Below are positions 3,655-17,000 of a stretch of 64,000 bases of DNA, in pieces. Within the stretch, counting starts at the first letter, position 1. Each line of letters starts with the position of its first letter. Below the pieces are notes generated by a model that saw only the letters and a program-made list of their open reading frames with translations, searched no databases and was not told the DNA's origin. The translations under genes were made by a program, and so were the position numbers. Source of the DNA: Sphingobium sp. HWE2-09 (lineage in GTDB: Bacteria; Pseudomonadota; Alphaproteobacteria; Sphingomonadales; Sphingomonadaceae); contig NZ_JAYKZX010000001.1 of the NCBI RefSeq assembly GCF_035989265.1, positions 434,001 to 498,000 on the forward strand, given 5' to 3'.

Positions 3655-4230
3655 GTGCGACGAATGGGCCAAGGCGAACGAGAAGGTCGAAGGATCGATC
3701 TTCAGATCACAAGCACCGACAGCGGCGAACGCTTCAGCTTCTCCGATTTCTACCGTCGCGAGAAACCGCGCCTGTTGCGCTTCTTCAATCGGCAGCTCGG
3801 CAACTCAGCCGACGCCGACGACCTCAGCCAGGAAACGCTGACACGCTTCGTGCGTGCCGCCCCCCACCCTGACCTGGACAGCCCCCGCGCCTACCTAACT
3901 CGAATAGCCACCAATCTCCTGCGCAATCATTCAGCGCGCGGCTCAACCCGCCTGTCGCGCCGGTCAACCGAACTGCACGACGGCGTGCATGGCGTCTCCC
4001 GGATCGACCCGCACCGCGAACTGCAAGCCCGCCAGGAACTCGCCCACTGGAGTGCCATCCTCCAGCAACTCCCCCCGCGAACCCTGGAAATTTTCCTTCT
4101 GAATCGCGTCGAAGGGTTTAGCTACCGCCAGATTGCTACCGATCTTGGGGAGCCCCTTTGGGTCATTCAGAAACATATGCTGAAGGCCATTCGCCTGATC
4201 ACCGCCCACAAGGAGGCGGACAATGACTAA
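3655..4230 (+). CDS. FecI-type ECF sigma factor of the lasso locus
   Basis: This protein (191 codons from GTG 3655, or 188 from ATG 3664) has sigma region 2 at about residues 28-95 (DFYRREKPRLLRFFNRQLGN, then ADADDLSQETLTRFVR) and region 4 at about 135-185 (LPPRTLEIFLLNRVEGFSYRQIATDLG). FecI-type factors switch on a TonB-receptor operon when the receptor reports ligand. Its stop overlaps the FecR gene by 8 bp and the receptor follows, giving the classic fecI-fecR-receptor order. I infer that it controls the receptor and isopeptidase genes here. Confidence 0.9.
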   Translation: MRRMGQGEREGRRIDLQITSTDSGERFSFSDFYRREKPRLLRFFNRQLGNSADADDLSQETLTRFVRAAPHPDLDSPRAYLTRIATNLLRNHSARGSTRLSRRSTELHDGVHGVSRIDPHRELQARQELAHWSAILQQLPPRTLEIFLLNRVEGFSYRQIATDLGEPLWVIQKHMLKAIRLITAHKEADND

Positions 4231-5224
4231 CGTCCACGAGCACATCACTGCGGAGGACAAGAAGGCCGCCCAGATCTGGGTGCTGCGCATGCTGGACGAG
4301 CCCGACCTCCATGCGCGCGGTCTCGCCGACTGGATCGCTGAGAAACCGACCCGGCAGGCCCTCTACGCCGACTTCATGAACGATGTTCAGACCGCCGGAC
4401 AGGCGGCTGCGAGCTTCCAAACCCACGCCCTGCCCCCTCGCCAGCGGCAACGCCCCTGGTGGGCCAAGCCGATGCCGGTACTGGCCGCAGCATCCATACT
4501 CGGCCTGCTGGCTTCGGCGTCCATGGTCTGGCGGAGCCCATCCCACGTCGCTCCGCATGTGCAAGAAGCCAGCCTCACGTCCTCTGTTGTCACAAGGCTG
4601 GGCGAAGTGCGTACGGTCCACCTTGCCGACGGGAGCCGCGCGATCCTCGATACCGACACGGTCCTCGGGGTGTCCATGGTAGCCGACAGCAGGACGATCA
4701 GCCTCAAGCGCGGCCGGGCACGCTTCATCGTGGCCCATGACAGCGCCCGCCCTTTCTATGTTCGAGCCGGCGGCATTCAGGTGCGTGCCACCGGCACCGT
4801 TTTTGATGTTCTGTTTCGCAATACTGTCGCGGTGCATCTCGTAGAAGGTGGCGTGGAGGTCCAGGTTTTGGCCAACGCCGCACAACCAGCAAAGACCATT
4901 GCCCTCAAGCCCGGTCAGATTCTGACGCTACGCCATGGACAAAGCCCCCAATCTCTTGTCATGCCTGCACGAAGGTCAGACCAGCAGTGGGTGAGCGGCG
5001 TGAAGAGCTTCGACAATGTGCCGATCAGGGAAGTGATCGTGGAAGCGAACAGCTATAGCGATTCCAAGATCGAACTAGTCCCGCCCAGTCTTGGCGAGCG
5101 AGAGATTTTCGCCGAGATCGACATCAGGGATATCGAGCGGGTCGCCGAAGCGATCAGTGGCTATCTCGACCTCACTATCGATCGGTCGCAAAAGCACAGA
5201 CTTATCCTCGCCTCCAAAAAATAA
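4223..5224 (+). CDS. FecR-type anti-sigma factor / regulator
   Basis: This 333-residue protein has an N-terminal cytoplasmic DUF4880-like segment (AAQIWVLRMLDEPDLHARGL), one membrane helix at about residues 81-104 and a periplasmic FecR domain (about 120-215; TRLGEVRTVHLADGSRAILDT, then TGTVFDVL and VHLVEGGVEV). The C-terminal part resembles an STN-like domain (FDNVPIREVIVEANSYSDSKIEL). Such proteins hold the sigma factor until the receptor's N-terminal domain signals through the periplasm. The 8-bp overlap with the sigma gene supports coupled expression. Confidence 0.92.
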   Translation: MTNVHEHITAEDKKAAQIWVLRMLDEPDLHARGLADWIAEKPTRQALYADFMNDVQTAGQAAASFQTHALPPRQRQRPWWAKPMPVLAAASILGLLASASMVWRSPSHVAPHVQEASLTSSVVTRLGEVRTVHLADGSRAILDTDTVLGVSMVADSRTISLKRGRARFIVAHDSARPFYVRAGGIQVRATGTVFDVLFRNTVAVHLVEGGVEVQVLANAAQPAKTIALKPGQILTLRHGQSPQSLVMPARRSDQQWVSGVKSFDNVPIREVIVEANSYSDSKIELVPPSLGEREIFAEIDIRDIERVAEAISGYLDLTIDRSQKHRLILASKK

Positions 5225-5298
5225 TCTCGGGCCGTTAGCTTCAAATCTTTCCTGCCCTGTCTTTCCCTACCGAACCTCAAAAAGAGGCGGCTTGAAAG

Positions 5299-7884
5299 AT
5301 GGGGGCAGACATGGGTTTGGCTAGGAACGCACTTCTGGGCAGCGGCGCACTGTGCATGTGCGCGGCTGCGATGCCAGCGGCGGCGCAGGATGCAAAGCGT
5401 CATTATGAATTGCCCGCGCAGTCGCTTGGCGAAGGGTTGCGGGCAATCGCCCAGGCCAACGACTATCAACTGGTCGCAGACCCCAAAGCGCTGGATGGCC
5501 GCCGTTCGCCAGCACTCAAGGGCGAATTCACCCTGGAGGAAGCCGTCGCTGTCCTTCTGGCGCGATCCGGCCTCGAGGCCGAGGTCAGGGGGCGAACCAT
5601 CATCCTGCGGGGGCGAGTTGCACCGTCGCGCTCGGAAGAGATAGACGGCGCGGCGGACAATCAGCTGTTCGTAACGGGCTCGCGCATACGGGGCGCGCAA
5701 CCGACCTCTCCCGTCATCGCCGCCTCCCGCGAGAAAATTCGTGAACTAGGACATAGCGACCTCGGATCCTACGTCCGCAATATTCCGCAGAATTTCAGCG
5801 GCGGCCAAAATCCCGGCGTTATCTCCAGCCTGCAGACCGGGTCCGAAAACACGACCTCATCGTCGGCCCTCAACCTCCGCGGCCTCGGTGCCGATGCCAC
5901 GCTGACGCTGCTCAATGGCCATCGGGTCGCCTATGATGCAGTAAGCCAGGGGATCGACATCTCCGCCATCCCGCTGGCTGCCGTCGAGCGTGTCGAGGTC
6001 GTCGCTGACGGATCGTCCGCGCTGTACGGCTCGGATGCTGTGGGCGGCGTCGCCAACATCCTGCTCCGGCGCGATTATGATGGCCTTTTGACCACAGCGC
6101 GCTTGGGCGCCGCAACCGACGGCGGCGATGTGCAGCATCAGTTCAGCGCCGTTACGGGAAGCCGCTGGTCGGGTGGCGGGTTCATGATCGCGGGCGACTA
6201 TAACAAGGCGACGGACATCACGGCTTCGCAGCGTTCCTATATGCGCTCGCGCCAGCGCAGCATGACGCTCCTGCCCTCGCAGCGTCAGGTCAGCGCGGTC
6301 CTTGCCGCGCATCAGGCGCTGGGCGATGTAGTCCAATTCGAGATCGACGCGCATTACAACCGCCATAAGTCGGTTGCCGCCCTGCCCTTCACCGCAACGG
6401 GCGATGTGACGCAACTCGGAACAATCAGCCGGCCCGACATCGAGGGCTACTCGATCAGCCCTACGGTAAAGTTCAAGCTGCCCGGAGGCTGGGAGGTTGA
6501 TGCGCGAGCCACCCGCGCGATCAGCGACAGTCAGATTATCGCCGAGATCTATTCCGGCGGGTCCCGATCAGCCGTCAATCATGTCGGCTACAGGAACGAC
6601 CTCTGGTCGGCCGAACTCAGCGGAGAAGGATCGCTTTTTGCTTTGCCGGGCGGCGACGCCCGTCTGGCCTTTGGGGCGGGGCTTAGATCCAATGGACTGG
6701 CAGCGTCGATCCAGCGCGTCATCAGAGCAACGACCACCTCCCTGCTGCGCTATACCGATGCCCAGACTGCTACCTACGCCTATGGCGAGATATTTCTGCC
6801 TGTGATCGCGGACCGCAACGATATCGCCTTCATCCATTCGCTGCAGCTGTCAGGTGCGGTCCGGTATGAGCGCTATGACGAGGTCGGCGGTCTTGCAACG
6901 CCGAAGATCGGCGTCACTTATCAACCGATCCGAGACCTCACCCTTAAAGGCAGTTGGGGCAAATCCTTCAAGGCACCGACCCTCGGCCAGCAAAACACCG
7001 TCCGGCAAGGCGCGCTGCTCGCCCCTGACTTCTACCTACCCGCGCCGCCCACCGGCCAAAATGTTCTACAGATCAGCGGCGGCAGTCGGGATCTGGAGCC
7101 TGAAAAGGCGACCACCCTGACGCTGACCGCCGAGGTCAAACCTCAGAGCATCCCAGGTCTGCGGATCGAAGGCAGCTATTTCAACGTCCGCTACAAGAAC
7201 CGTGTCATCCGGCCAATTGCGGACAGCACACAGGCATTCAGGCCGGAATATGCCGACCTAATTCTGCTTAATCCAACGCTTGACCAGGTACTGGCGGCGA
7301 CCGCTTCGCTGCCCTTGGGCGTCCAGAACCAGACTGCCGGCGCATACGATCCGGCAAACCTTGCCGCTATCATCTTCAACCAGCTCCAGAACGCTGCCGA
7401 GCAGCATATTCGGGGGGTGGATGCTACAGCCTCCTACGAATTTTCGGCGGGCGGCAGCGCGTTCAATCTCGAAGCAAATGCCAGTTATCTTAAGAGCGAT
7501 CAGAAGTTGAGCGCGGGACAGCCAACCATCATTCGCGCGGGCACAATCTTCAACCCGCCACATTGGCGGGCACGTGCCAGCGCCGGCTGGCGGCGTGGCA
7601 GCGCTGGCGCGACGCTGGCCTATAATTATACCGGCGGCACCGACGACAATCGAACCACCACAGTCTACAAAGTCTCCGGCTTCCACAGCGCGGACGCAAC
7701 GATCAGTTGGCAGCCGGAACGCAGTGGCTTTGGAGGCGGCTGGTCCTTCCTGCTTGCGGCACAGAATCTCCTTAATGAGAAGCCATCGAGGATTGCTTCG
7801 AGTGCGACCAGCCCGACTTATGACGCCACCAACTATTCGGCGATCGGTCGTCTGATCAGCCTCACCGTCTCGAAAGCCTGGTAA
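5299..7884 (+). CDS. TonB-dependent receptor with STN signalling domain (predicted lasso peptide receptor)
   Basis: An 861-residue outer-membrane receptor: signal peptide ending near AAMPAAAQ (residue ~30), STN domain (~35-100, YELPAQSLGEGLRAIAQAND), plug (~130-260, with NLRGLGADATLTLLNGHR and SSALYGSDAVGGVANILLRR) and a C-terminal barrel ending in W. The STN domain fits signalling to the FecR protein encoded just upstream. The gene is fused by TAATG to the isopeptidase gene, so import and cleavage are co-translated. That the substrate is the locus's own lasso peptide is inference from this linkage, known in astexin-type clusters. A second possible start is ATG 5311. Confidence 0.92.
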   Translation: MGADMGLARNALLGSGALCMCAAAMPAAAQDAKRHYELPAQSLGEGLRAIAQANDYQLVADPKALDGRRSPALKGEFTLEEAVAVLLARSGLEAEVRGRTIILRGRVAPSRSEEIDGAADNQLFVTGSRIRGAQPTSPVIAASREKIRELGHSDLGSYVRNIPQNFSGGQNPGVISSLQTGSENTTSSSALNLRGLGADATLTLLNGHRVAYDAVSQGIDISAIPLAAVERVEVVADGSSALYGSDAVGGVANILLRRDYDGLLTTARLGAATDGGDVQHQFSAVTGSRWSGGGFMIAGDYNKATDITASQRSYMRSRQRSMTLLPSQRQVSAVLAAHQALGDVVQFEIDAHYNRHKSVAALPFTATGDVTQLGTISRPDIEGYSISPTVKFKLPGGWEVDARATRAISDSQIIAEIYSGGSRSAVNHVGYRNDLWSAELSGEGSLFALPGGDARLAFGAGLRSNGLAASIQRVIRATTTSLLRYTDAQTATYAYGEIFLPVIADRNDIAFIHSLQLSGAVRYERYDEVGGLATPKIGVTYQPIRDLTLKGSWGKSFKAPTLGQQNTVRQGALLAPDFYLPAPPTGQNVLQISGGSRDLEPEKATTLTLTAEVKPQSIPGLRIEGSYFNVRYKNRVIRPIADSTQAFRPEYADLILLNPTLDQVLAATASLPLGVQNQTAGAYDPANLAAIIFNQLQNAAEQHIRGVDATASYEFSAGGSAFNLEANASYLKSDQKLSAGQPTIIRAGTIFNPPHWRARASAGWRRGSAGATLAYNYTGGTDDNRTTTVYKVSGFHSADATISWQPERSGFGGGWSFLLAAQNLLNEKPSRIASSATSPTYDATNYSAIGRLISLTVSKAW

Positions 7885-9971
7885 TGCTTATCTCCCTTGT
7901 CATAAGCCTTGCCGGAGCAGGTGCGGTCGCAGTCCCGGCCGCACCTGCAATTCAGGACTGTGCCACGCTTCTTAGCCCGCGCATGTCTGCAGCACGCCGC
8001 CCCATCGAAGATCGAGACTTAATCGAGCTTCTTGATATTGGCCCTATTTCGCAGATGGAGGCTGGCCCATTTTATGCAGTGTCACCCGATCACACCATGA
8101 TCGCTGTAAGTCTCCGCCGGGCGAACATCGCGCATGACGATTATTGCACAGGGATAGTCCTTGTAAATGAAAGCGGCGAGGCCACAGTCCTAGATGCCGG
8201 GCCAGGCGCGGCTTTCTTCCGTTTGGATGAATTTTACGGCACGAACGGCTTTCCCACTGGCGTTACAAAGCTGATCACGCCCCGCTGGTCTGCCGATGGT
8301 CAGCGTCTAGCCTACCTTAAATTTGAAGATGGACGTCTGCGTCTGCGCGTTTGGGAAAAGATCGGGCGAGACATTCGCTCGGTCAAGAATGATGCGGGCA
8401 ACATCGTCGACTTTCAGTTCACGCCAGGGGGCGACAGCCTAGTTTACAAGATATGGGATGAGACTCGTCAGCAAGCGACCCTGCAGACGGAGTCGAAACG
8501 GGGATACCGGTTCGACGATCGCTATTTCCCATTCGCTTCATCCATCCCCTTTCCATCTGGCGCTCCGCTCTACCGATATGAGACTGTCGACTTGATCGAT
8601 GGCCGCGTCCGGACCGCGAGCGATGCCGAAGAAGCTCTGGTATCAACAGCGAGAAGGGATGATTCCTCCTTCCAGCGCGTTCGTGCGGTCACGGTTGCAG
8701 ACGAGCCGGGTGTAGAGCGGATTGCAGCCAACATTCAAGGCAAGGAAGAACGCTGTGAAAGCCCGCTCTGCTCTCGCACTGACGGACGGCCATGGCTATC
8801 ACTAAAGGGAAAAATACGGTTTGTGCGTCGTGACGCATGGGCTGGCAGCGCTATGTCTATTTACGAATGGGCGATCGGAACCAAGGCCCCTCACCGGCTT
8901 TATTCAACGCCAGACCTGCTGCTGAACTGCGGCCCGATCGGCGAGGATGTTCTTTGCGGCAGAGAGAGTAGCATGCAACCGCGTCGTCTCGACCGCATAG
9001 ACCTGACAACCCAAAAATCCTCCACCGTCTTTGACCCAAACCCTGCCTTTGCCAATCTGATCATCGGCCGCGCTGAACGCTTGAAGTGGAAAAATGATCA
9101 GGGCGTCGAATGTTTTGGAGACCTCGTCTATCCGCCCGATTTCAGACCGGGACATCGCTATCCGTTGATCGTGGTACAATATGAAAGCCGTGGATTTCTC
9201 CGGGGCGGCACGGGCGACGAATATCCCATCCAGCTCTTCGCTCGCGAGGGCTATCTCGTCCTTAGCATGCAACGCCCGCGATCACCGTTATTTGGCAAAG
9301 GGCTGTCGTCTATGGAGAGGCAACGCCTGCAAAATGAGGGCTTTCTTGAACGTCGCGGCATCTTGTCGGCGATCGAAACCAAGGTGCGGCAACTTATCGA
9401 TATGGGACTGGCGGACCCAGACCGCATCGGTATCACAGGCCTCAGTGATGGATCTACCACCGTTCAATATGCAGCATCGCACAGCGATCTGTTCAGCGCC
9501 GCGGCCATAAGCGGCTGCTGCTGGGAACCGTCCCAGACCTGGCTGCTTGGCCCTTCTCTTCAGACCGCTTATGAACGGGTAGGATGGCCCAGATCACCAG
9601 AGGAGCAAGCCGCAAAGTGGGGGGAAATCTCCCTGGCGCGCAATGCGTCGCACATCGCCTTTCCTCTTCTCGTGCAAGCAGCAGATGGCGAGTATCTGGT
9701 TGCGCTCGAAGCCGTTCGTGCCTTGCGTGAGGCCGGCAGTCCGGTGGACCTGTTTGTCTATCCTGATGAACTGCACATCAAACGGCATCCGGCCCATAGA
9801 GCCAGCGTCTATCACCGCAACCTTTTATGGTTCGATTTCTGGCTTCGCGGAAAAAAGCCACCGGCCGACGATCCTGGCGCAGCGGAAGTCGATCGCTGGG
9901 CACTGATGCAGCAGAAGTGGAAAAATTCCAAAGCGCGAGCCTTGATCCCACGTCAACCAGGAGGGGGCTGA
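7884..9971 (+). CDS. Lasso peptide isopeptidase (S9 prolyl-oligopeptidase-like)
   Basis: A 695-residue exported serine hydrolase with a signal peptide (residues 1 to ~22), a beta-propeller region (~60-390) and a C-terminal alpha/beta-hydrolase domain. The nucleophile is Ser521 in GLSDG; Asp601 (QAADGEY) and His631 (DELHIKRH) complete the likely triad. Length and order match the AtxE family, which hydrolyses the isopeptide bond of imported lasso peptides. It starts inside the receptor stop (TAATG) and ends 10 bp from the end of the convergent cyclase gene. A general dipeptidyl peptidase is the alternative, made unlikely by context. Confidence 0.9.
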   Translation: MLISLVISLAGAGAVAVPAAPAIQDCATLLSPRMSAARRPIEDRDLIELLDIGPISQMEAGPFYAVSPDHTMIAVSLRRANIAHDDYCTGIVLVNESGEATVLDAGPGAAFFRLDEFYGTNGFPTGVTKLITPRWSADGQRLAYLKFEDGRLRLRVWEKIGRDIRSVKNDAGNIVDFQFTPGGDSLVYKIWDETRQQATLQTESKRGYRFDDRYFPFASSIPFPSGAPLYRYETVDLIDGRVRTASDAEEALVSTARRDDSSFQRVRAVTVADEPGVERIAANIQGKEERCESPLCSRTDGRPWLSLKGKIRFVRRDAWAGSAMSIYEWAIGTKAPHRLYSTPDLLLNCGPIGEDVLCGRESSMQPRRLDRIDLTTQKSSTVFDPNPAFANLIIGRAERLKWKNDQGVECFGDLVYPPDFRPGHRYPLIVVQYESRGFLRGGTGDEYPIQLFAREGYLVLSMQRPRSPLFGKGLSSMERQRLQNEGFLERRGILSAIETKVRQLIDMGLADPDRIGITGLSDGSTTVQYAASHSDLFSAAAISGCCWEPSQTWLLGPSLQTAYERVGWPRSPEEQAAKWGEISLARNASHIAFPLLVQAADGEYLVALEAVRALREAGSPVDLFVYPDELHIKRHPAHRASVYHRNLLWFDFWLRGKKPPADDPGAAEVDRWALMQQKWKNSKARALIPRQPGGG

Positions 9972-9981
9972 AGCGCGATCC

Positions 9982-11742
9982 TTAGCTTTCTAATCCCTGC
10001 CAGTGGGAAATCCAGGCCTCAAGATCAAGGAGCATAAGCAAGCGGACGTAACTGCGTCCCGTGACACTGCCTTTCGGAATCGCCGCTTCCAGAACCTCTG
10101 CATCTAACAGCCCCCGTCGCACGAGTACTCCGTCGAAAAGCCGTTCCCGCACTTCACGTTCTTTGTTCAAAATGAGGGAAATAGCGAACCCACTAGGGCT
10201 GCCCTTTCGACGACGGTCGCGCACGAGGGGTGGGAGGGCATCCGCAAAAGCGAGACGAACCACCGCCCTGTCTCGCCCTCCTTCCAACATGCGCCAGGTG
10301 GGTATGCTAAGGGCAAGTTCCATCACAGGCTGGGACATGAGGGGATTGATCATCGGCAGCCCGAAGGGGCGAAGATAGCCTTCCAGATGGTTCTGCACTT
10401 TGAGCAGGTGCGCGACATGACCGATTTTGCCGGGCCGACCCTTTGGCTGACTGTCTAGCCAGGCATGCGTAGCCGGACGCGTCATGACGTCCGCTGCCAG
10501 ATCGGCAGCCAGCATCGAAATGTCCCTATGCCAGACATAAGGGCGGCGCACCACAGCACGAAACTTTACTGTTTCGCGCAGTGCGGAGACCCAGCTCGTC
10601 TGGGTAACATCGCATATATTCCCGAATGTCCGCAAAGCTTGCAGCCCTGGACCCTGGCCATAGAGGACATCGAAGAGGGGCCGGAGGGACGCGCTGTTGT
10701 AGAATATGCTGTCGCCGCCATTGCCGGTAAATACAGCGTCCGCTCCGATGCCGTCCGCGGAGCGGACAACAGCGGCATGATAGGCCGTTTCGTGGATCGT
10801 GCCGATCGGCTTTGGAAAATGTCGCGATACGGATTGCGATAGATCGGCGTCTGCCAGATCAAAATAGGGCTCGTGCAAGGCGGCGCCGACATGCGCCGAC
10901 ATAGCACGCGCATATTCCCGCTCGTCTCCGAGCCGGTCTTGCGTAACAAGGGTTATGCATTGCTGATCTGCGTTGGCGCGCGCCAGGGCTGCCACGACGA
11001 CGGAGGAGTCCAAACCGCCCGAAAGGGTCGAAACAATTTGGTCCGCAGTGGAAGCCCATGACGCCGCGCAGTGATCGATGGCCCGCCGCAGGCGGTGCGC
11101 CATGTCCGCGCCATCCCACACGTCGGCTTCGCCTACATAATCCCAAGGGGACCAAAAGCCGGACGGATCACTTGCGTGCGCTCCGAGTTTGATGGATGTC
11201 CCGGCCAACAATTCGTGCAAGCCTTCAATCGCGGTCCGTGTGGACGGGAGATCCTTGGCAGTGAGATAGCGCGGCATTTCCGCCCAGGCGATGCGTGGCC
11301 GCAAGAGGCCCGCGCGGACAAGCGCCTCTGCATCAGAAGCTATAGCCCATCCCGTCGATGTCGCCATGAAATAGCATGGCATCGCGCCACCTGGATCGCG
11401 GATCAGCTCAAGCCCCTCGTCGCGCGCCAACACTGCGATGAAGCCGCCCCAATATTGGTCGCGCAAGATTTTGAGTGGCTCCGGACCGTCCAGCTCTTCT
11501 GTCCACTGACGGTCGTTGTGATCGATCCGCTTCGCTGCACCATGGCGCGGGAAAATGGTTCCGATCGCCACGCCCTTTCCGCCGGGAAGTCGAAGCGCCT
11601 CGCCCTCGACGTTCATGAGGATCAGACAATGATGTTCGGCCAATGTGACGTGGAAAGGAAATGTCTCCTGCAGCCTTGAGGCTAGCTGCGGCAGCGATGC
11701 CCCGGACTGATCGACCAGGATGAGATAGCGCAAGAGCGTCAT
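9982..11742 (-). CDS. Lasso cyclase (C protein, asparagine synthetase-like)
   Basis: This 586-residue protein has an N-terminal glutaminase-like domain without a catalytic Cys2 (it starts MTLLRYLILVDQSG) and an ATP-pyrophosphatase domain with the PP-loop SGGLDSS at 241-247. Lasso C proteins adenylate the Asp or Glu side chain of the core, which the new N-terminal amine then attacks to close the ring. Its ATG overlaps the stop of the B gene (ATGA, 4 bp), so the two are translationally coupled. The gene next to it encodes a B protein, which rules out a primary asparagine synthetase. Confidence 0.93.
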   Translation of the reverse strand: MTLLRYLILVDQSGASLPQLASRLQETFPFHVTLAEHHCLILMNVEGEALRLPGGKGVAIGTIFPRHGAAKRIDHNDRQWTEELDGPEPLKILRDQYWGGFIAVLARDEGLELIRDPGGAMPCYFMATSTGWAIASDAEALVRAGLLRPRIAWAEMPRYLTAKDLPSTRTAIEGLHELLAGTSIKLGAHASDPSGFWSPWDYVGEADVWDGADMAHRLRRAIDHCAASWASTADQIVSTLSGGLDSSVVVAALARANADQQCITLVTQDRLGDEREYARAMSAHVGAALHEPYFDLADADLSQSVSRHFPKPIGTIHETAYHAAVVRSADGIGADAVFTGNGGDSIFYNSASLRPLFDVLYGQGPGLQALRTFGNICDVTQTSWVSALRETVKFRAVVRRPYVWHRDISMLAADLAADVMTRPATHAWLDSQPKGRPGKIGHVAHLLKVQNHLEGYLRPFGLPMINPLMSQPVMELALSIPTWRMLEGGRDRAVVRLAFADALPPLVRDRRRKGSPSGFAISLILNKEREVRERLFDGVLVRRGLLDAEVLEAAIPKGSVTGRSYVRLLMLLDLEAWISHWQGLES

Positions 11743-12392
11743 AGGGCGAGGATCGGTTCGAACGTACGGATATTCTCTATCCGGTCATTAAGAACATAGT
11801 CGCCGGCCTGAACCCAGCAATGGGCGGAGAAGGGCGCGGCGCAGACGCCCAGAATGAGCTGCGGCTTGTAGCCCAATGACCTGGCAACGCGCATGAAGGC
11901 GATCGAGTTTGTGAGGCAATGACCGCTTCTGGGTCGCAAATGCGACGATGCGAAGAAGGCGGCAACCAATGGCTGCCAGCGCGGTTCGGGTCCATCGCCA
12001 GCAGCGTCCTTCGTCGCAGCAGCGCGTTGGTCGATCCCTTGCAGTACCTCGGCCAGCGCTTTGGTGCGAAGCGCGCTCGCAGCGCGAATTTGCGCTACAA
12101 CGAATTTAGCGATGAGGCGCAGGCTTGGCTTCAGCGCGCCTGAGACCATTTCCTGGTTCGCTGCCACTATTACTGGCGCAGTGAATTCAGCCTCGATTTC
12201 CGCCTCAACCAGAATGCCGGCATTAACAAGTGCGCTAAGCTGAGGACCTGTCGACCCAGCAGCCACCAGCGCCTGAAAGGCAAGGTCCCAGTCGTGCTGG
12301 AGGCCGAAATATCGATCAGCCTCGACATCCAGGAAGATCGAACGACCCCCCGCGATACAGTAGGCAAGTCCCTCTCTCATCCGATATCCCAT
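11739..12392 (-). CDS. Lasso peptide leader peptidase, fused B1-B2 protein
   Basis: From ATG 12392 the protein has 217 residues. Residues 1-80 look like a PqqD-type RiPP recognition element (YCIAGGRSIFLDVEADRYFGL) that binds the leader. Residues ~130-217 form the transglutaminase-like cysteine protease with Cys159 (SGHCLTN), His191 (FSAHCWV) and Asp203 (LNDRIEN). It cuts the leader so the cyclase can close the ring. The frame is open to 12524, but that would overlap the precursor gene; ATG 12380 is a further alternative start. It lies 73 bp after the precursor stop. Confidence 0.92.
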   Translation of the reverse strand: MGYRMREGLAYCIAGGRSIFLDVEADRYFGLQHDWDLAFQALVAAGSTGPQLSALVNAGILVEAEIEAEFTAPVIVAANQEMVSGALKPSLRLIAKFVVAQIRAASALRTKALAEVLQGIDQRAAATKDAAGDGPEPRWQPLVAAFFASSHLRPRSGHCLTNSIAFMRVARSLGYKPQLILGVCAAPFSAHCWVQAGDYVLNDRIENIRTFEPILAL

Positions 12393-12431
12393 GGCGAAGC
12401 TCTCGAAGATATGGTGCCACCCGCTCGCAAA

Positions 12432-12458
12432 GGCGCGCGCCACGTGTGGGCGCGCGCC
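12432..12458 (-). terminator. Hairpin between precursor and B gene (attenuator or mRNA stabiliser)
   Basis: Two copies of the self-complementary GGCGCGCGCC flank a 7-nt loop, giving a perfect 10-bp GC stem in the 73-bp gap between the precursor stop and the B start. There is no T-run. From what is known of proteobacterial lasso operons, a hairpin here allows much more precursor mRNA than enzyme mRNA. Confidence 0.7.
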
Positions 12459-12465
12459 CCGAGGG

Positions 12466-12612
12466 TCAGTCGTCGGCGATGCCCATATCGAGCTGCTGAA
12501 GGCCGATCTGATCGAAATCACCACGGACGGATCCTTGCGTTTCCACCGAAGCGATACCCAGATCGACGATCACCTCGTCATTGTCATGGATGTTCTGCAT
12601 CTTCATCTCCAT
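12466..12612 (-). CDS. Lasso peptide precursor (A gene)
   Basis: A 48-codon gene immediately upstream of B and C. The leader (residues 1-26) ends DLGIASVETQ, with Thr25 at the -2 position that lasso proteases require; the LG-x-AS-x-ET pattern also occurs in the astexin leader. The core begins at Gly27: ring GSVRGDFD, then tail QIGLQQLDMGIADD. The only acidic residue at ring position 7-9 is Asp8, so a Gly1-Asp8 macrolactam of eight residues is predicted. Three in-frame ATGs (12612, 12606, 12600) are possible; GGAG six nt before 12600 and GGTGG before 12612 are both acceptable. The calculated monoisotopic mass of the full cyclised core is 2331.08 Da. Confidence 0.93.
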   Translation of the reverse strand: MEMKMQNIHDNDEVIVDLGIASVETQGSVRGDFDQIGLQQLDMGIADD

Positions 12613-12661
12613 CGAACTACCACCGGGATTGGCGGCACGGTCGATTGTAAAGATGGATTAG

Positions 12662-12704
12662 CTTATATCCGACCTTATAAGTCCTCAAATTGGGCGCTTA
12701 TAAG
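12662..12704 (-). promoter_or_regulatory. Tandem CTTATAAG palindromes upstream of the lasso precursor
   Basis: The self-complementary octamer CTTATAAG occurs at 12674-12681 and 12697-12704 (centres 23 bp apart, about two helical turns), with a related CTTATATC at 12662. They lie 60-90 bp upstream of the precursor start, in an AT-rich stretch between the GntR stop and the precursor. I infer an operator, probably for the adjacent GntR or XRE protein, and the TATAAG cores may also include the -10 element. I noticed no other copy in the window. Confidence 0.55.
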
Positions 12705-12773
12705 CCGGATGCACCCTGCAACTTAATTCAATCTCAAGTCCATGTGACAGGATCAGAGGATTTCTGGGTCAAA

Positions 12774-13403
12774 TTATGACGACATCCATTTCGACGCAGC
12801 ATCAGCAATCTCTGGCGCACGCAGTAAACGTCGGCGATGATATTGCCACATGGCACCTTGTATAGCGCTTTTATTTCCTTTCTCAGTCAGATTCCATAGT
12901 GCGATAAGCTCTGCGGCATGGCGCTTTGCTGCGCCTTCGCATAAGCGGCGGACAGCGAGTCGTTCGCCTAGCCCCTTGATCGCGTCTTGCAATTCCATGT
13001 TGGAAGAGCAGCCGGCCAACCGGATGAAAAAGCTTGTCGTGGCATCCGCGACACTATGGTGATCTGGCTCGCGCGCAACAATCTGCGCAGACGGCTGCCC
13101 CACTGCTGCAAAACTCTCCGCATCTTTGACCGCCGCCCGTATCAGTTCGGCATGAAGGGCATAAAGATCAAAGGTATTCCGTGCGGTGATGGCCGGTATC
13201 GCAAAGCCGCCGCCCCCCTGCATCTCGACCAATCCTTGGCCCACCAGTCGATTGAGTGCATCCCGGACAGGCGAGATGCTCGTGCCAAACGCCTCTGCCA
13301 TGGCGTGAACCGTGAGTGGCAAACCTGCCCCGAAATAGCCGCGCAGGATAAGCGCCTTGATGTCGCGGTGGAGCCGGTCGGCCGTCAGTGCTTCAGGTGC
13401 CAT
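12774..13403 (-). CDS. GntR-family transcriptional regulator of the lasso locus
   Basis: This 209-residue protein has a winged-helix domain at residues ~8-70 (LHRDIKALILRGYFGAGLPL, then AEAFGTSISPVRDALNRLVGQGLVE), the FadR/FCD subgroup signature. The C-terminal half is helical but only loosely FCD-like. It begins 9 bp after the XRE gene stop and ends about 160 bp before the precursor start, so it probably regulates precursor expression. GntR genes are known companions of isopeptidase-type lasso clusters. Confidence 0.85.
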   Translation of the reverse strand: MAPEALTADRLHRDIKALILRGYFGAGLPLTVHAMAEAFGTSISPVRDALNRLVGQGLVEMQGGGGFAIPAITARNTFDLYALHAELIRAAVKDAESFAAVGQPSAQIVAREPDHHSVADATTSFFIRLAGCSSNMELQDAIKGLGERLAVRRLCEGAAKRHAAELIALWNLTEKGNKSAIQGAMWQYHRRRLLRAPEIADAASKWMSS

Positions 13404-13412
13404 GCCGGCTAC

Positions 13413-13832
13413 TCATCCGGCCGGTCCGGAACCAGTTCGCGCTCGCGCTCCGCCTCCGGGCTGGAGGAAGGTCCGCAGCTTCAGGTTCGAAATGAATTCG
13501 ATGCAGAGGCGTTCGATCTCATGCATGTCGTCAACGAAGAAATGTCGCGGAAAGTGCATATGATGCTCCAAGAACAGCATGGGGATGAGAAGATGCGCGG
13601 CAGACAGCCCAAGGGCGTGCGCGCACGCAATGTGATCATCAAACCGGGACTTCGGGTTACCCGATTCAATTTCGCGCAACCATCGCACGCCGATCCCGAC
13701 ATCGGCGGCCAGTTGCCGTTGGGTAATGCGATGCCGCCTGCGACGTTCTTCAATACGGCGACCTGAGATCGACTTGACCTCAGCCAATATCGACGCACCT
13801 TCTTCTAAGGCGTCGCCCTGATATGAGGTCAT
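13413..13832 (-). CDS. XRE-family helix-turn-helix regulator
   Basis: 139 residues with a Cro/C1 helix-turn-helix at ~25-80 (RRIEERRRRHRITQRQLAADVGIGVRWLREIE). The middle contains HFFVDDMHEIERLCIEFISN and the C-terminus is low-complexity. It starts at ATG 13832 behind AGGGAGGA and is the first gene of the minus-strand lasso operon, 9 bp before GntR. Its binding site and signal cannot be read from the sequence. Confidence 0.8.
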   Translation of the reverse strand: MTSYQGDALEEGASILAEVKSISGRRIEERRRRHRITQRQLAADVGIGVRWLREIESGNPKSRFDDHIACAHALGLSAAHLLIPMLFLEHHMHFPRHFFVDDMHEIERLCIEFISNLKLRTFLQPGGGARARTGSGPAG

Positions 13833-14050
13833 CAGGTCCTCCCTGATTGGGCCTCAAAGCATCCATTCACATTCCGACTCGGCCAATGTTGAGTGAAATG
13901 TTAAGCAGGTCAAATATTATCGCTCCCATTTTGACAGTTGGGATAGCGCGGCTTTGTTCAGAATTTACCCGGCATTTGTCCATTCGAAGGCTCGCAAGTG
14001 CATCTGCGCTACTTCAATGCCTTGGGATGTACAGGTGGACCCAAGGCCGA

Positions 14051-17000
14051 TCAATGAAAGTCCCCGCTTTTGCCTAGCCGGGCTTCCTTCATCCCATCGA
14101 TATGGAGATCAGCTATGAGAATGTCCCGTCCACTGGGCATGCCTCTTGGGTCAGGGCCACCACCATTTTTAGCGCCATCCCCGCGCCCGCGCGACAGGGG
14201 GAATGCCTCGCCTCTCTGTCCCAGCGATCCCAGCAGCGACGACAGATCGATGAGCTTCTTGACGATCACATGCACGACTTTGCCTTCGCGCTGCACCTGA
14301 CCGTAGAGCCCCAGCATCCGCGCACCCATGACGATCCGCCGGTTCTGCTCGAACATGCTGGGCCACAGGATCAGATTGGCGATCCCGCTTTCATCCTCGA
14401 TGGTGATGAACATGACGCCCTTGGCCGATCCGGGCCGCTGCCGCACCAGCACCAGTCCGGCCAACCAGATATAGCGCCCATCCCTGATCGTCTCGATCGC
14501 GCTGCAGGGCATCATCTTCTGCCGCAAAAGATCGTCGCGCAGGAAGGAAACAGGATGCTGGCGCAGGGTGAGCTCGACATGGCCATAATCTTCGACCACC
14601 TCCCTCCCCTCGCTCATCGGCCGCAACGCGACCGGCTGCTCGTCAATCTCTTCTACAAACCCATTCTCCCGCGCATCGGCCGCGGCAAACAAAGGCAGTT
14701 GCTCATCCCTCAGTGCCTTGATCGTCCAAAGCGCTTCGCGACGGCGCAAGCGCATGGACGCTCGATAAGCGTCGGCCTCCGCCAACCGGTTGAGCGAACC
14801 GCCCCCCACGCCTGCCCGGCGCCAGAGCTCTTCAATAGAGACAAACGGCGCGTCGGCCCGCGCCATGACGATCCGCGCCGCATCGGCTTCCTTGAGCCCG
14901 GTTACCATCCGCATCCCAAGCCATACCGCGAACCGATCGTCGCCGGCATCTTCCAAGGTGCAGTCGCAGCGCGAAGCGTTGATGCAGACGGGCCGGATTT
15001 CGACCCGATGCGCCCGCGCGTCCGCCACGATCTGAGCGGGCGCATAAAAGCCCATGGGCTGCGGGTTCAACAGGCTGGCGCAGAAGATTTCAGGATGCCA
15101 GCATTTCATCCAAACCGAGGCATAGGCAATCAGCGCAAAGGAGGCGGCATGGCTTTCCGGAAAGCCGTAGCTGCCAAAGCCTTCGAGCTGACCGAAGGTC
15201 TTCTCTGCAAACTCGGAAGTGTAGCCGCGCTCGACCATGCCGCTTACCAGCTTCTCCTTGAATTTCGAAACCCCGCCGGTGAACTTGAATGTCGCCATCG
15301 CGCGGCGCAGCTGATTCGCCTTTGACGCGGTGAAGCCTGCACATTCAGTCGCGACCCGCATAGCCTGTTCCTGAAACAGCGGCACGCCCAGCGTCTTGCC
15401 CAGCACCTTCTCCAGTTCAGGCTTGGGATATTCGACCTTCTCCTTGCCAGCGCGACGCCGAAGATAGGGGTGCACCATGTCGCCCTGGATCAGGCCGGGG
15501 CGAACGATCGCCACCTCGATCACCAGATCGTAGAATGTGCGCGGCCTGATGTGCGGAAGCATCGCCATCTGCGCGCGGCTTTCGATCTGGAAGGTACCCA
15601 GCGTGTCGGCCGCGCGGATCATGGCATAGGTGCGCGGATCTTCGGGCGGGATGGATGCCAAGTCCATGCCTATACCCTTATGAGCTTCCAGAAAATCGAA
15701 CCCGCGCTTCATCGCGGTCAGCATGCCCAGCGCGAGGCAATCAACCTTCATGAACTTGAGTGCGTCGATATCATCCTTGTCCCACTCGATCACCTGGCGA
15801 TCGGCCATCGCCGCCAGCTCGATCGACACCAGTTCATCGAGACGGTCGTGGGTGAGAACGAACCCTCCGGGATGTTGGGAAAGGTGGCGCGGCGTCCCAA
15901 TCAACTCTTTGGCAAGATCGATGGCGAGCCGAAGGCGGCGATCGGTCAGATTGAGGCCAAGCTCGTCGACATGCTTTTCCTGGACGCCCTCCTCGCTCCA
16001 GCCCCATATCTGGCAGGAAAGAGCTGTAATCAGATCTTCCGACAGCCCCAGGGCCTTGCCGACGTCGCGGATGGCGCCCTTGGCTTTGTAGCGGATGACC
16101 GTCGAACACAGCGCCGCATGATCGCGGCCGTAGGTATCGAACACCCACTGCATGACGATCTCGCGCCGCTCATGCTCGAAATCGACGTCGATATCGGGCG
16201 GCTCCTTGCGCTCCTGGCTGATGAACCGCTCGAAAAGCAGGTCCGAGCGCTCGGGGTCGATCGATGTGATGCCGAATACATAGCAAACCGCGCTGTTGGC
16301 GGCCGAACCCCGACCCTGGCACAGAATGTCCCGGCTTCGCGCAAAGCGGACGATGGCATTTACCGTCAGAAAATAGGGCGCATAGCCAAGCTCCCCGATG
16401 AGCCGCAACTCATGGGCAATCAGCCGGGATACCTTGTCAGGTACGCCGCCAGGGTAACGCGCCATTGCCGCTTCCCAGCTCAGTTCCTCGAGCGTTGCCT
16501 GCGGCGTCATGCCCGCAACGCTCACCTCCTGGGGATATTGATATTTGAGTTCATCGAGTGAGAAGCGGCAGCGCTCAGCGATCTCCAGCTTTCGGGCGAG
16601 CGCCTCGGGATAGCGGCCGTAGAGCCGGTGCATTTCGGCGGCGGGCATCAGATAGCGGTCGGCATGAAGTTCGCGACGAGCGCCCAGTTCATCGATCGTG
16701 CATCGATGACGGGTGCATGTGATGACCTCCTGGAGCACACGGCGGTGAGGATGATGGTAGAGGACATCTCCGGTAATGACGGTCGGCACGCGATGCCGGG
16801 CCACGAGATTGGAAAGTGTGTGGAGGTGCATCTGATCGCCCGGTCGCCGCCGCAGTGTCAGCGTAAGATAGGCCCGGCTCAAGAAAATTCCGGCAAAGCG
16901 CGCCAGCACAGCTTCTACCTCTGGCACCTGCCCGGCAGCAGGATGGCAAGCACGCCCTCGGCATGGTCTGCCACATCATCCCAGTCAATGATGCATTTTC

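Follow-up and report, generated by a model that had tools for sequence, protein, structure and literature searches.

Which signal governs the making of a lasso peptide whose producer seems equipped to take it back and cut it open? The question is raised by a locus of Sphingobium sp. HWE2-09, located at positions 3655-13832 of a 64,000-nucleotide stretch of contig NZ_JAYKZX010000001.1 (hereafter the window), which is a complete isopeptidase-type lasso peptide locus with two regulatory genes, of the GntR and XRE families, at its making end. The function of isopeptidase-type lasso peptides has been called enigmatic and their role an open question; a scavenging or signalling loop, as opposed to an antibiotic role, was suggested in the preliminary description of this DNA and has also been proposed in the literature (PMC9266682; this paper, like PMC4494728 and PMC7797058 below, is cited from excerpts). 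The two regulators are the most informative part of the locus. The best explanation as a whole, which we consider probable, is an isopeptidase-type lasso locus whose making side is switched, by activation or by repression, by GntR acting on palindromes and XRE acting on a CA-N3-TG repeat. The candidate operator pair makes the question of the peptide's role experimental, and should the precursor promoter prove to be under GntR and XRE control, the factor that releases these regulators would be a strong lead to that role.

Regulators and DNA elements of the making side

The genes and elements concerned are the following (window coordinates):

12466-12612, minus strand: lasso precursor of 48 residues (PF24178, 48.8 bits; NF033522, 54.3 bits; both over cut-off)
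12774-13403, minus strand: GntR regulator with FadR/FCD fold, Ile43 at the proposed base-reading position
13413-13832, minus strand: XRE/HTH_31 regulator, partner of lasso GntR genes (PF13560, 31.9 bits)
12674-12681, minus strand: palindrome CTTATAAG, promoter-near copy of element E2, proposed GntR operator
12697-12704, minus strand: palindrome CTTATAAG, promoter-far copy of element E2, proposed GntR operator
12662-12669, minus strand: imperfect third site GATATAAG at a distance of 12 bp from the second palindrome, read from the sequence
12682-12696, minus strand: 15-bp spacer with CA-N3-TG at its centre, a proposed, weak site for XRE
13909-13914, minus strand: TTGACC, putative -35 box of the XRE-GntR operon, aligned with relatives
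13921-13937, minus strand: inverted repeat CTGTCA-AAA-TGGGAG-CG (element E1), proposed XRE operator

The palindrome CTTATAAG occurs twice in the 64 kb, both times between GntR and the precursor gene, compared to a chance mean of 0.19 (two copies were reached in 3 of 100 shuffles), and the two copies form the only such pair 23 bp apart in the genome. Similar palindromic 8-mers exactly 23 bp apart were found in ten of 30 representative XRE-type precursor promoters, with zero to three at other distances from 12 to 40 bp, and minor signals, at 12 and at 35 bp, are compatible with a third half-site. When residue 43 of GntR is Lys (Lys class), the boxes are 21 bp apart in nine of 11 clusters. TATAAR sites are also present in 19 of the 29 clusters that have GntR but no XRE (shuffle mean 1.7, maximum 6), which makes XRE less likely as the palindrome reader.

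GntR, which is composed of a winged helix-turn-helix and an FCD-like helical domain (FadR subfamily), is the proposed reader of these sites: its dimers would occupy a pair of 10-bp palindromes separated by roughly two turns of the helix, with residue 43 reading base 3. Atu1419 (VanR of Agrobacterium fabrum), an FCD-type GntR, binds the 10-bp palindrome ATGTATACAT and reads G3 through Arg45 (PMC7797058). Ile43 of the window protein aligns with this base-3-reading residue (profile positions 10-83 on Atu1419 12-85), and its SIS-PVR stretch aligns with SRT-PVR of 7u5q; the two systems differ in that the palindromes are 190 bp apart for Atu1419 and 23 bp apart here, with Arg in the former and Ile in the latter. 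Among the 21 clusters with a 23-bp pair, Ile-class sites carry T3/A8 in 21 of 26 cases and A8 in all 26, while Thr/Val-class sites carry T8 in 10 of 12; Lys-class promoter-near sites carry G3 in nine of nine. Residue 43 and site class agree in 21/21 clusters. The sites are short, unique in the genome and varied among relatives, so that their specificity can be tested by base and residue exchange (CTTATAAG, CATATATG, GATATC).

Alternatively, the TATA elements could be parts of the core promoter or the site of a general DNA-binding protein, with the 23-bp pair as a by-product of promoter conservation within one genus. The A/T richness of the elements and their position ahead of the likely start of transcription would suit this explanation, as would the occurrence of TATAAR across the clusters of the family, whose members are non-independent relatives. 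Perfect palindromes, with an exact 23-bp spacing and no copy elsewhere in the window and genome, are nevertheless hard to reconcile with it, as is a base change that goes with a protein residue, and we regard it as improbable.

The second element, E1, is an inverted repeat with a CA-N3-TG core, found shortly upstream of a TTGAC box in 43 of 46 XRE upstream regions (not in L149, L174 and L177). Some copies are perfect, such as GCTTTCA-N3-TGAAAGC, and the arms vary between groups. We propose XRE as the reader of E1, as the 52 XRE sequences compared do not vary in the helix around RWLRE (residues R50, W51, L52, R53, E54 and E56). One XRE target would be the repeat in the XRE promoter; in many relatives a second would lie between the two GntR palindromes: CA-N3-TG is exactly centred in ten of 16 distinct 23-bp spacers, that of the window included, and all nine Lys-class spacers contain it. 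Elsewhere in the genome, further E1 targets were rejected, because matches with three mismatches are no commoner than in a reversed control: the only exact match is 13921-13937, and with seven others carrying three mismatches the total of eight equals the control count. A Foldseek search with the C-terminal part of XRE returned no match at E ≤ 0.001, helix-turn-helix proteins being the best ranked.

The partnership of the two regulatory genes is observed across the genus. A search of 94 genus genomes with the XRE protein gave matches in 57, at 107 places including that of the window, and 40 of the other 106 places, mostly the stronger matches, were fetched. GntR neighbours XRE in 38 of the 40 places, and a lasso B gene then follows in 37. 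Among the exceptions, L149 lacks both GntR and B, while L171 and L165 run to contig ends. The fetched loci contain near-identical pairs (e.g. L147/L148, L150/L151 and L152/L153), and L139, L142 and L143 were taken as the same loci as L036, L032 and L033, the latter three being dropped from later tables. In close loci XRE is 82-86% identical to that of the window, and GntR 56-58%. In L146, which is located on the 1.25 Mb replicon NZ_CP081002.1, one open frame about 360 residues long (positions 9924-11006 of the fetched L146 stretch) encodes XRE together with GntR; this could reflect a true gene fusion or an error in the frame. The only record from a plasmid search was that of Sphingobium sp. 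V4, whose 1.25 Mb replicon is predicted by PLSDB to be conjugative.

The two assignments could be swapped, since FadR-subfamily GntR sites typically have 3 nt between their conserved dinucleotides, GT and AC, which equals the spacing of E1 (PMC4494728). GntR would then bind the CA-N3-TG repeat in both promoters, its own and that of the precursor, and XRE or another factor would bind the CTTATAAG palindromes. The location of E1 upstream of the operon encoding both regulators and the difference of its arms between GntR classes are in line with such an exchange. On the other hand, most of the 29 GntR-only promoters have E1 scores close to the mean of the shuffles (at least 10 of 12 arm positions matched in 6/29), and TATAAR was found in 19 of them; base 3 of E2 varies with the GntR position whose Atu1419 counterpart contacts base 3 (PMC7797058); and some GntR regulators, such as BioR, do read TA-rich palindromes (PMC4494728). 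We therefore consider the swap unlikely, and the pairing of GntR with the palindromes and of XRE with E1 is retained.

Besides the FadR-type spacing, several observations weigh against this pairing. Many of the compared clusters are close relatives, so the counts are not independent; the full agreement of residue 43 with site class corresponds to two to three independent changes (three on the tree), and an independent-pairs sign test had two pairs (p 0.5). G3 is present in only four of nine Lys-class promoter-far sites, two of the 11 Lys clusters lack the 21-bp pattern, and Gly, Ser and Pro clusters show no 23-bp pair. In clusters without XRE, Ile/Leu sites carry T3 in only 3/6, G3 being found in 13 of 14 others; the search pattern TATAAR fixes base 8, so that base 8 carries no information there. 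As for E1, six of the 16 distinct spacers keep one half of the CA-N3-TG core. The precursor promoter of the window matches its own E1 at chance level (8/12, p 0.53, outside the 12682-12696 spacer), and among 41 precursor promoters only 12 reach p 0.01 and 17 a match of at least 10 of 12 arm positions. L037, which lacks XRE, reaches an 11/12 match to E1, close to the start codon.

A weak E1-like site in the precursor promoter would also be expected if the locus were a silent remnant. We consider this very improbable, as all reading frames are complete, each over at least one family cut-off, and a precursor with 91% identity exists in the protein database.

With respect to the signal, the usual metal site is probably missing from the GntR pocket, judging from alignment. 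In Atu1419 the metal ligands are Asn137, His141, His192 and His214 (PMC7797058), and the Asp-x3-His pair of TM0439 was taken as metal-binding by its pattern. Where the aligned stretch of TM0439 has the metal-site-type His, the GntR proteins of the window family have Phe126 in 32 of 34 sequences, accompanied by Thr122 in 28/34 and His189 in 31/34 (sequence alignment alone); the sole His at this position belongs to P0039, the one match annotated as PF07729. With this site probably lost, the ligand of GntR need not be a small carboxylic acid, and it is our speculation that it could be the lasso peptide or its linear form. One may go further and picture XRE and GntR as a dedicated two-key lock on peptide production, to which the joint frame of L146 would be suited; in the cytoplasm it would sense a product of the import and cleavage branch, e.g. 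the linearised peptide, so that uptake would feed back on synthesis. Genomes with several clusters would then keep separate channels through the joint drift of base 3 and residue 43; we hold this extended picture to be decidedly doubtful. In all seven tabulated genus genomes with at least two clusters, two or more residue types are represented at position 43 of the co-resident GntRs, and G473 and G399 each also have two Ile43 copies.

Gene content and predicted product

The remaining genes of the locus are listed below.

3655-4230, plus strand: ECF (extracytoplasmic function; FecI-like) sigma factor (PF04542, PF08281 and TIGR02937 over cut-off)
4223-5224, plus strand: FecR-like anti-sigma factor (PF04773, 55.7 bits, over cut-off)
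5299-7884, plus strand: TonB-dependent receptor with N-terminal STN signalling domain, plug and barrel (PF07660, PF07715 and PF00593 over cut-off)
7884-9971, plus strand: lasso peptide isopeptidase of the AtxE2 family (NF033523, 675.6 bits, cut-off 400; GLSDG serine motif)
9982-11742, minus strand: C protein, asparagine-synthetase-like lasso cyclase (PF00733, 98.6 bits, cut-off 21)
11739-12392, minus strand: B protein, leader binding and B2 peptidase (PF13471 and NF033537, the latter 70.2 bits, cut-off 33, scored on the longer frame)

The preliminary description had listed precursor, B, C, isopeptidase, STN receptor, FecI and FecR, GntR and XRE, all of which were recovered at their positions, and coordinates and strands bear out the two convergent operons it had proposed, with ten bases between them (the isopeptidase gene ends at 9971 and the C gene at 9982). 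Its assignment to the isopeptidase-type (astexin-like) family likewise holds, as precursor and isopeptidase are over the family cut-offs and the described architecture is matched. It had also noted the lack of an export ABC transporter; in agreement, the family scan reported none among the locus proteins and the ten flanking open reading frames (ORFs), three of which matched no family at all. The C protein is below the cut-offs of two lasso-type cyclase models (112.8 of 300 and 53 of 525 bits). By comparison with the B proteins of relatives, the start of B is very probably 12392 (217 residues, MGYRMREG...) instead of the GTG that falls within the precursor gene, at 12524. Only one B-type transglutaminase domain (PF13471) was found genome-wide, and by this test 3655-13832 is the sole lasso cluster of the genome.

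The XRE-GntR-A-B-C side would make a 22-residue lasso peptide with an eight-residue ring predicted between Gly1 and Asp8 and a mass of 2331.08 Da; recomputation of this previously given mass yielded 2331.0801 Da. The core GSVRGDFDQIGLQQLDMGIADD follows ...ETQ (ETQ|GSVRGDFD), with Thr at position -2. This residue and a ring-forming Asp or Glu at core position 7-9, here Asp8, match a feature of isopeptidase-type clusters, and Asp at core position 8 is also present in L138, L139 and L143. The precursor exceeds the cut-offs of the subterisin/benenodin family (PF24178, NF033522) across leader and core, while its core sequence is shared with none of the compared clusters tabulated. A protein database search with the precursor gave one relative (P0001, 44 residues), 91% identical over 92% of the query and thus not the same peptide, and the core string was found in no paper of the searchable open-access library, whose scope excludes subscription papers and supplements; the peptide, earlier described as unfamiliar, has remained so within these searches. 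The predicted ring (G-S-V-R-G-D-F-D) contains an RGD tripeptide, which is shared by P0001 and probably a coincidence.

Proposed import, sensing and cleavage

The receptor side would re-import the threaded peptide through the outer membrane and, by way of the STN domain and then FecR, inform the sigma factor of its arrival; the isopeptidase would open the ring, probably in the periplasm. The STN domain is used by FecR/FecI signalling in Fec systems. For the isopeptidase, the nearest solved sequence is AtxE2 (5txc, E 3.5e-112), and its N-terminus is hydrophobic and signal-like, as in the compared relatives; from this we infer a periplasmic location.

A candidate promoter for the ECF sigma factor lies ahead of the receptor gene:

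5237-5263, plus strand: AGCTTCA-N13-CTGTCTT, one copy in the window

No copy of this pattern, which was derived from the same site, was found in 100 shuffles, and a similar AGCTTYA...CCCGTCTT is present in the alignment of several close relatives, so it is a plausible sigma target. Control of the precursor promoter by the ECF sigma factor was considered and rejected, as the pattern occurs once, ahead of the receptor gene, and not at the precursor promoter.

The receptor and isopeptidase genes had been reported to overlap by TAATG, with import and linearisation being stoichiometrically tied as a consequence. The overlap is real. The tie as stated was rejected, since short overlaps are usual: among 104 clusters the offset of the two genes is -1 in 18 and -4 in 18, and the overlap implies translational coupling at most. 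The commonest offset, -7 (54/104), is partly an artefact of start-codon choice, and only -1 and -4 were relied on. Isopeptidase genes appear to be broken or split in G007, G201, G342, G123 and G385. Four further loci (L045, L050, L087 and L092) have isopeptidase, receptor and sigma/FecR genes, with neither B nor C detected in the sequence fetched, and these are possible takers of the lasso peptides of others.

Frequency of the architecture and known relatives

Sixty of 397 same-family genomes, that of the window included, were over the AtxE2-family isopeptidase cut-off. In total 76 loci were compared: 70 over the cut-off besides that of the window, five further loci, whose named contigs belong to Sphingobium and one Sphingopyxis, and the window itself. 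Several of the compared stretches stop at contig ends, which lowers the neighbour counts. The C gene faces the isopeptidase gene in 72 of the 76 loci. GntR, detected with a profile of our own, is located on the B side in 42 and on the sigma side in eight others; its position on the B side is therefore frequent, not universal. XRE scored above 100 bits beyond GntR in nine of the 76.

According to the review PMC9266682, isopeptidase clusters have a near-constant architecture, in which GntR precedes the precursor and the isopeptidase is accompanied by genes for the TonB transporter and the sigma/anti-sigma pair. The clusters of astexin-2/3 (Asticcacaulis excentricus, AtxE2), sphingopyxin I and benenodin-1 share with the window the order precursor-B-C, an AtxE2-family isopeptidase, a TonB receptor, the sigma/anti-sigma pair, GntR before the precursor and the absence of an ABC exporter (PMC9266682). 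Compared to astexin-2/3-type clusters, the window has another core and an XRE gene preceding GntR, a gene that the excerpts of PMC9266682 do not mention for those clusters. For lasso clusters of the isopeptidase type, neither an XRE gene nor a mapped operator is described in the excerpts of PMC9266682, PMC10368454, PMC13352647, PMC12670498, PMC4494728 and PMC7797058, all from the open-access library. The locus is thus of a known kind, and its dedicated XRE gene and two-element promoter are a variant not found described in the open-access library.

In L098 the precursor gene (5836-5985) has a core that starts with GPPGDRIEFGVLAQLPG, the sequence of subterisin, and the encoded core is four residues longer. 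Two precursor-like genes were observed in tandem in clusters L046, L047, L067, L078, L093, L095, L096 and L104. Finally, the locus is adjoined by a DNA polymerase III alpha-type gene at 14051-16927 (PF07733, PF17657), possibly of the error-prone type, and flanked on its other side by a gene at 1884-2528 for a transglutaminase-core-2/TPR protein (PF13369), a family different from that of the B protein.

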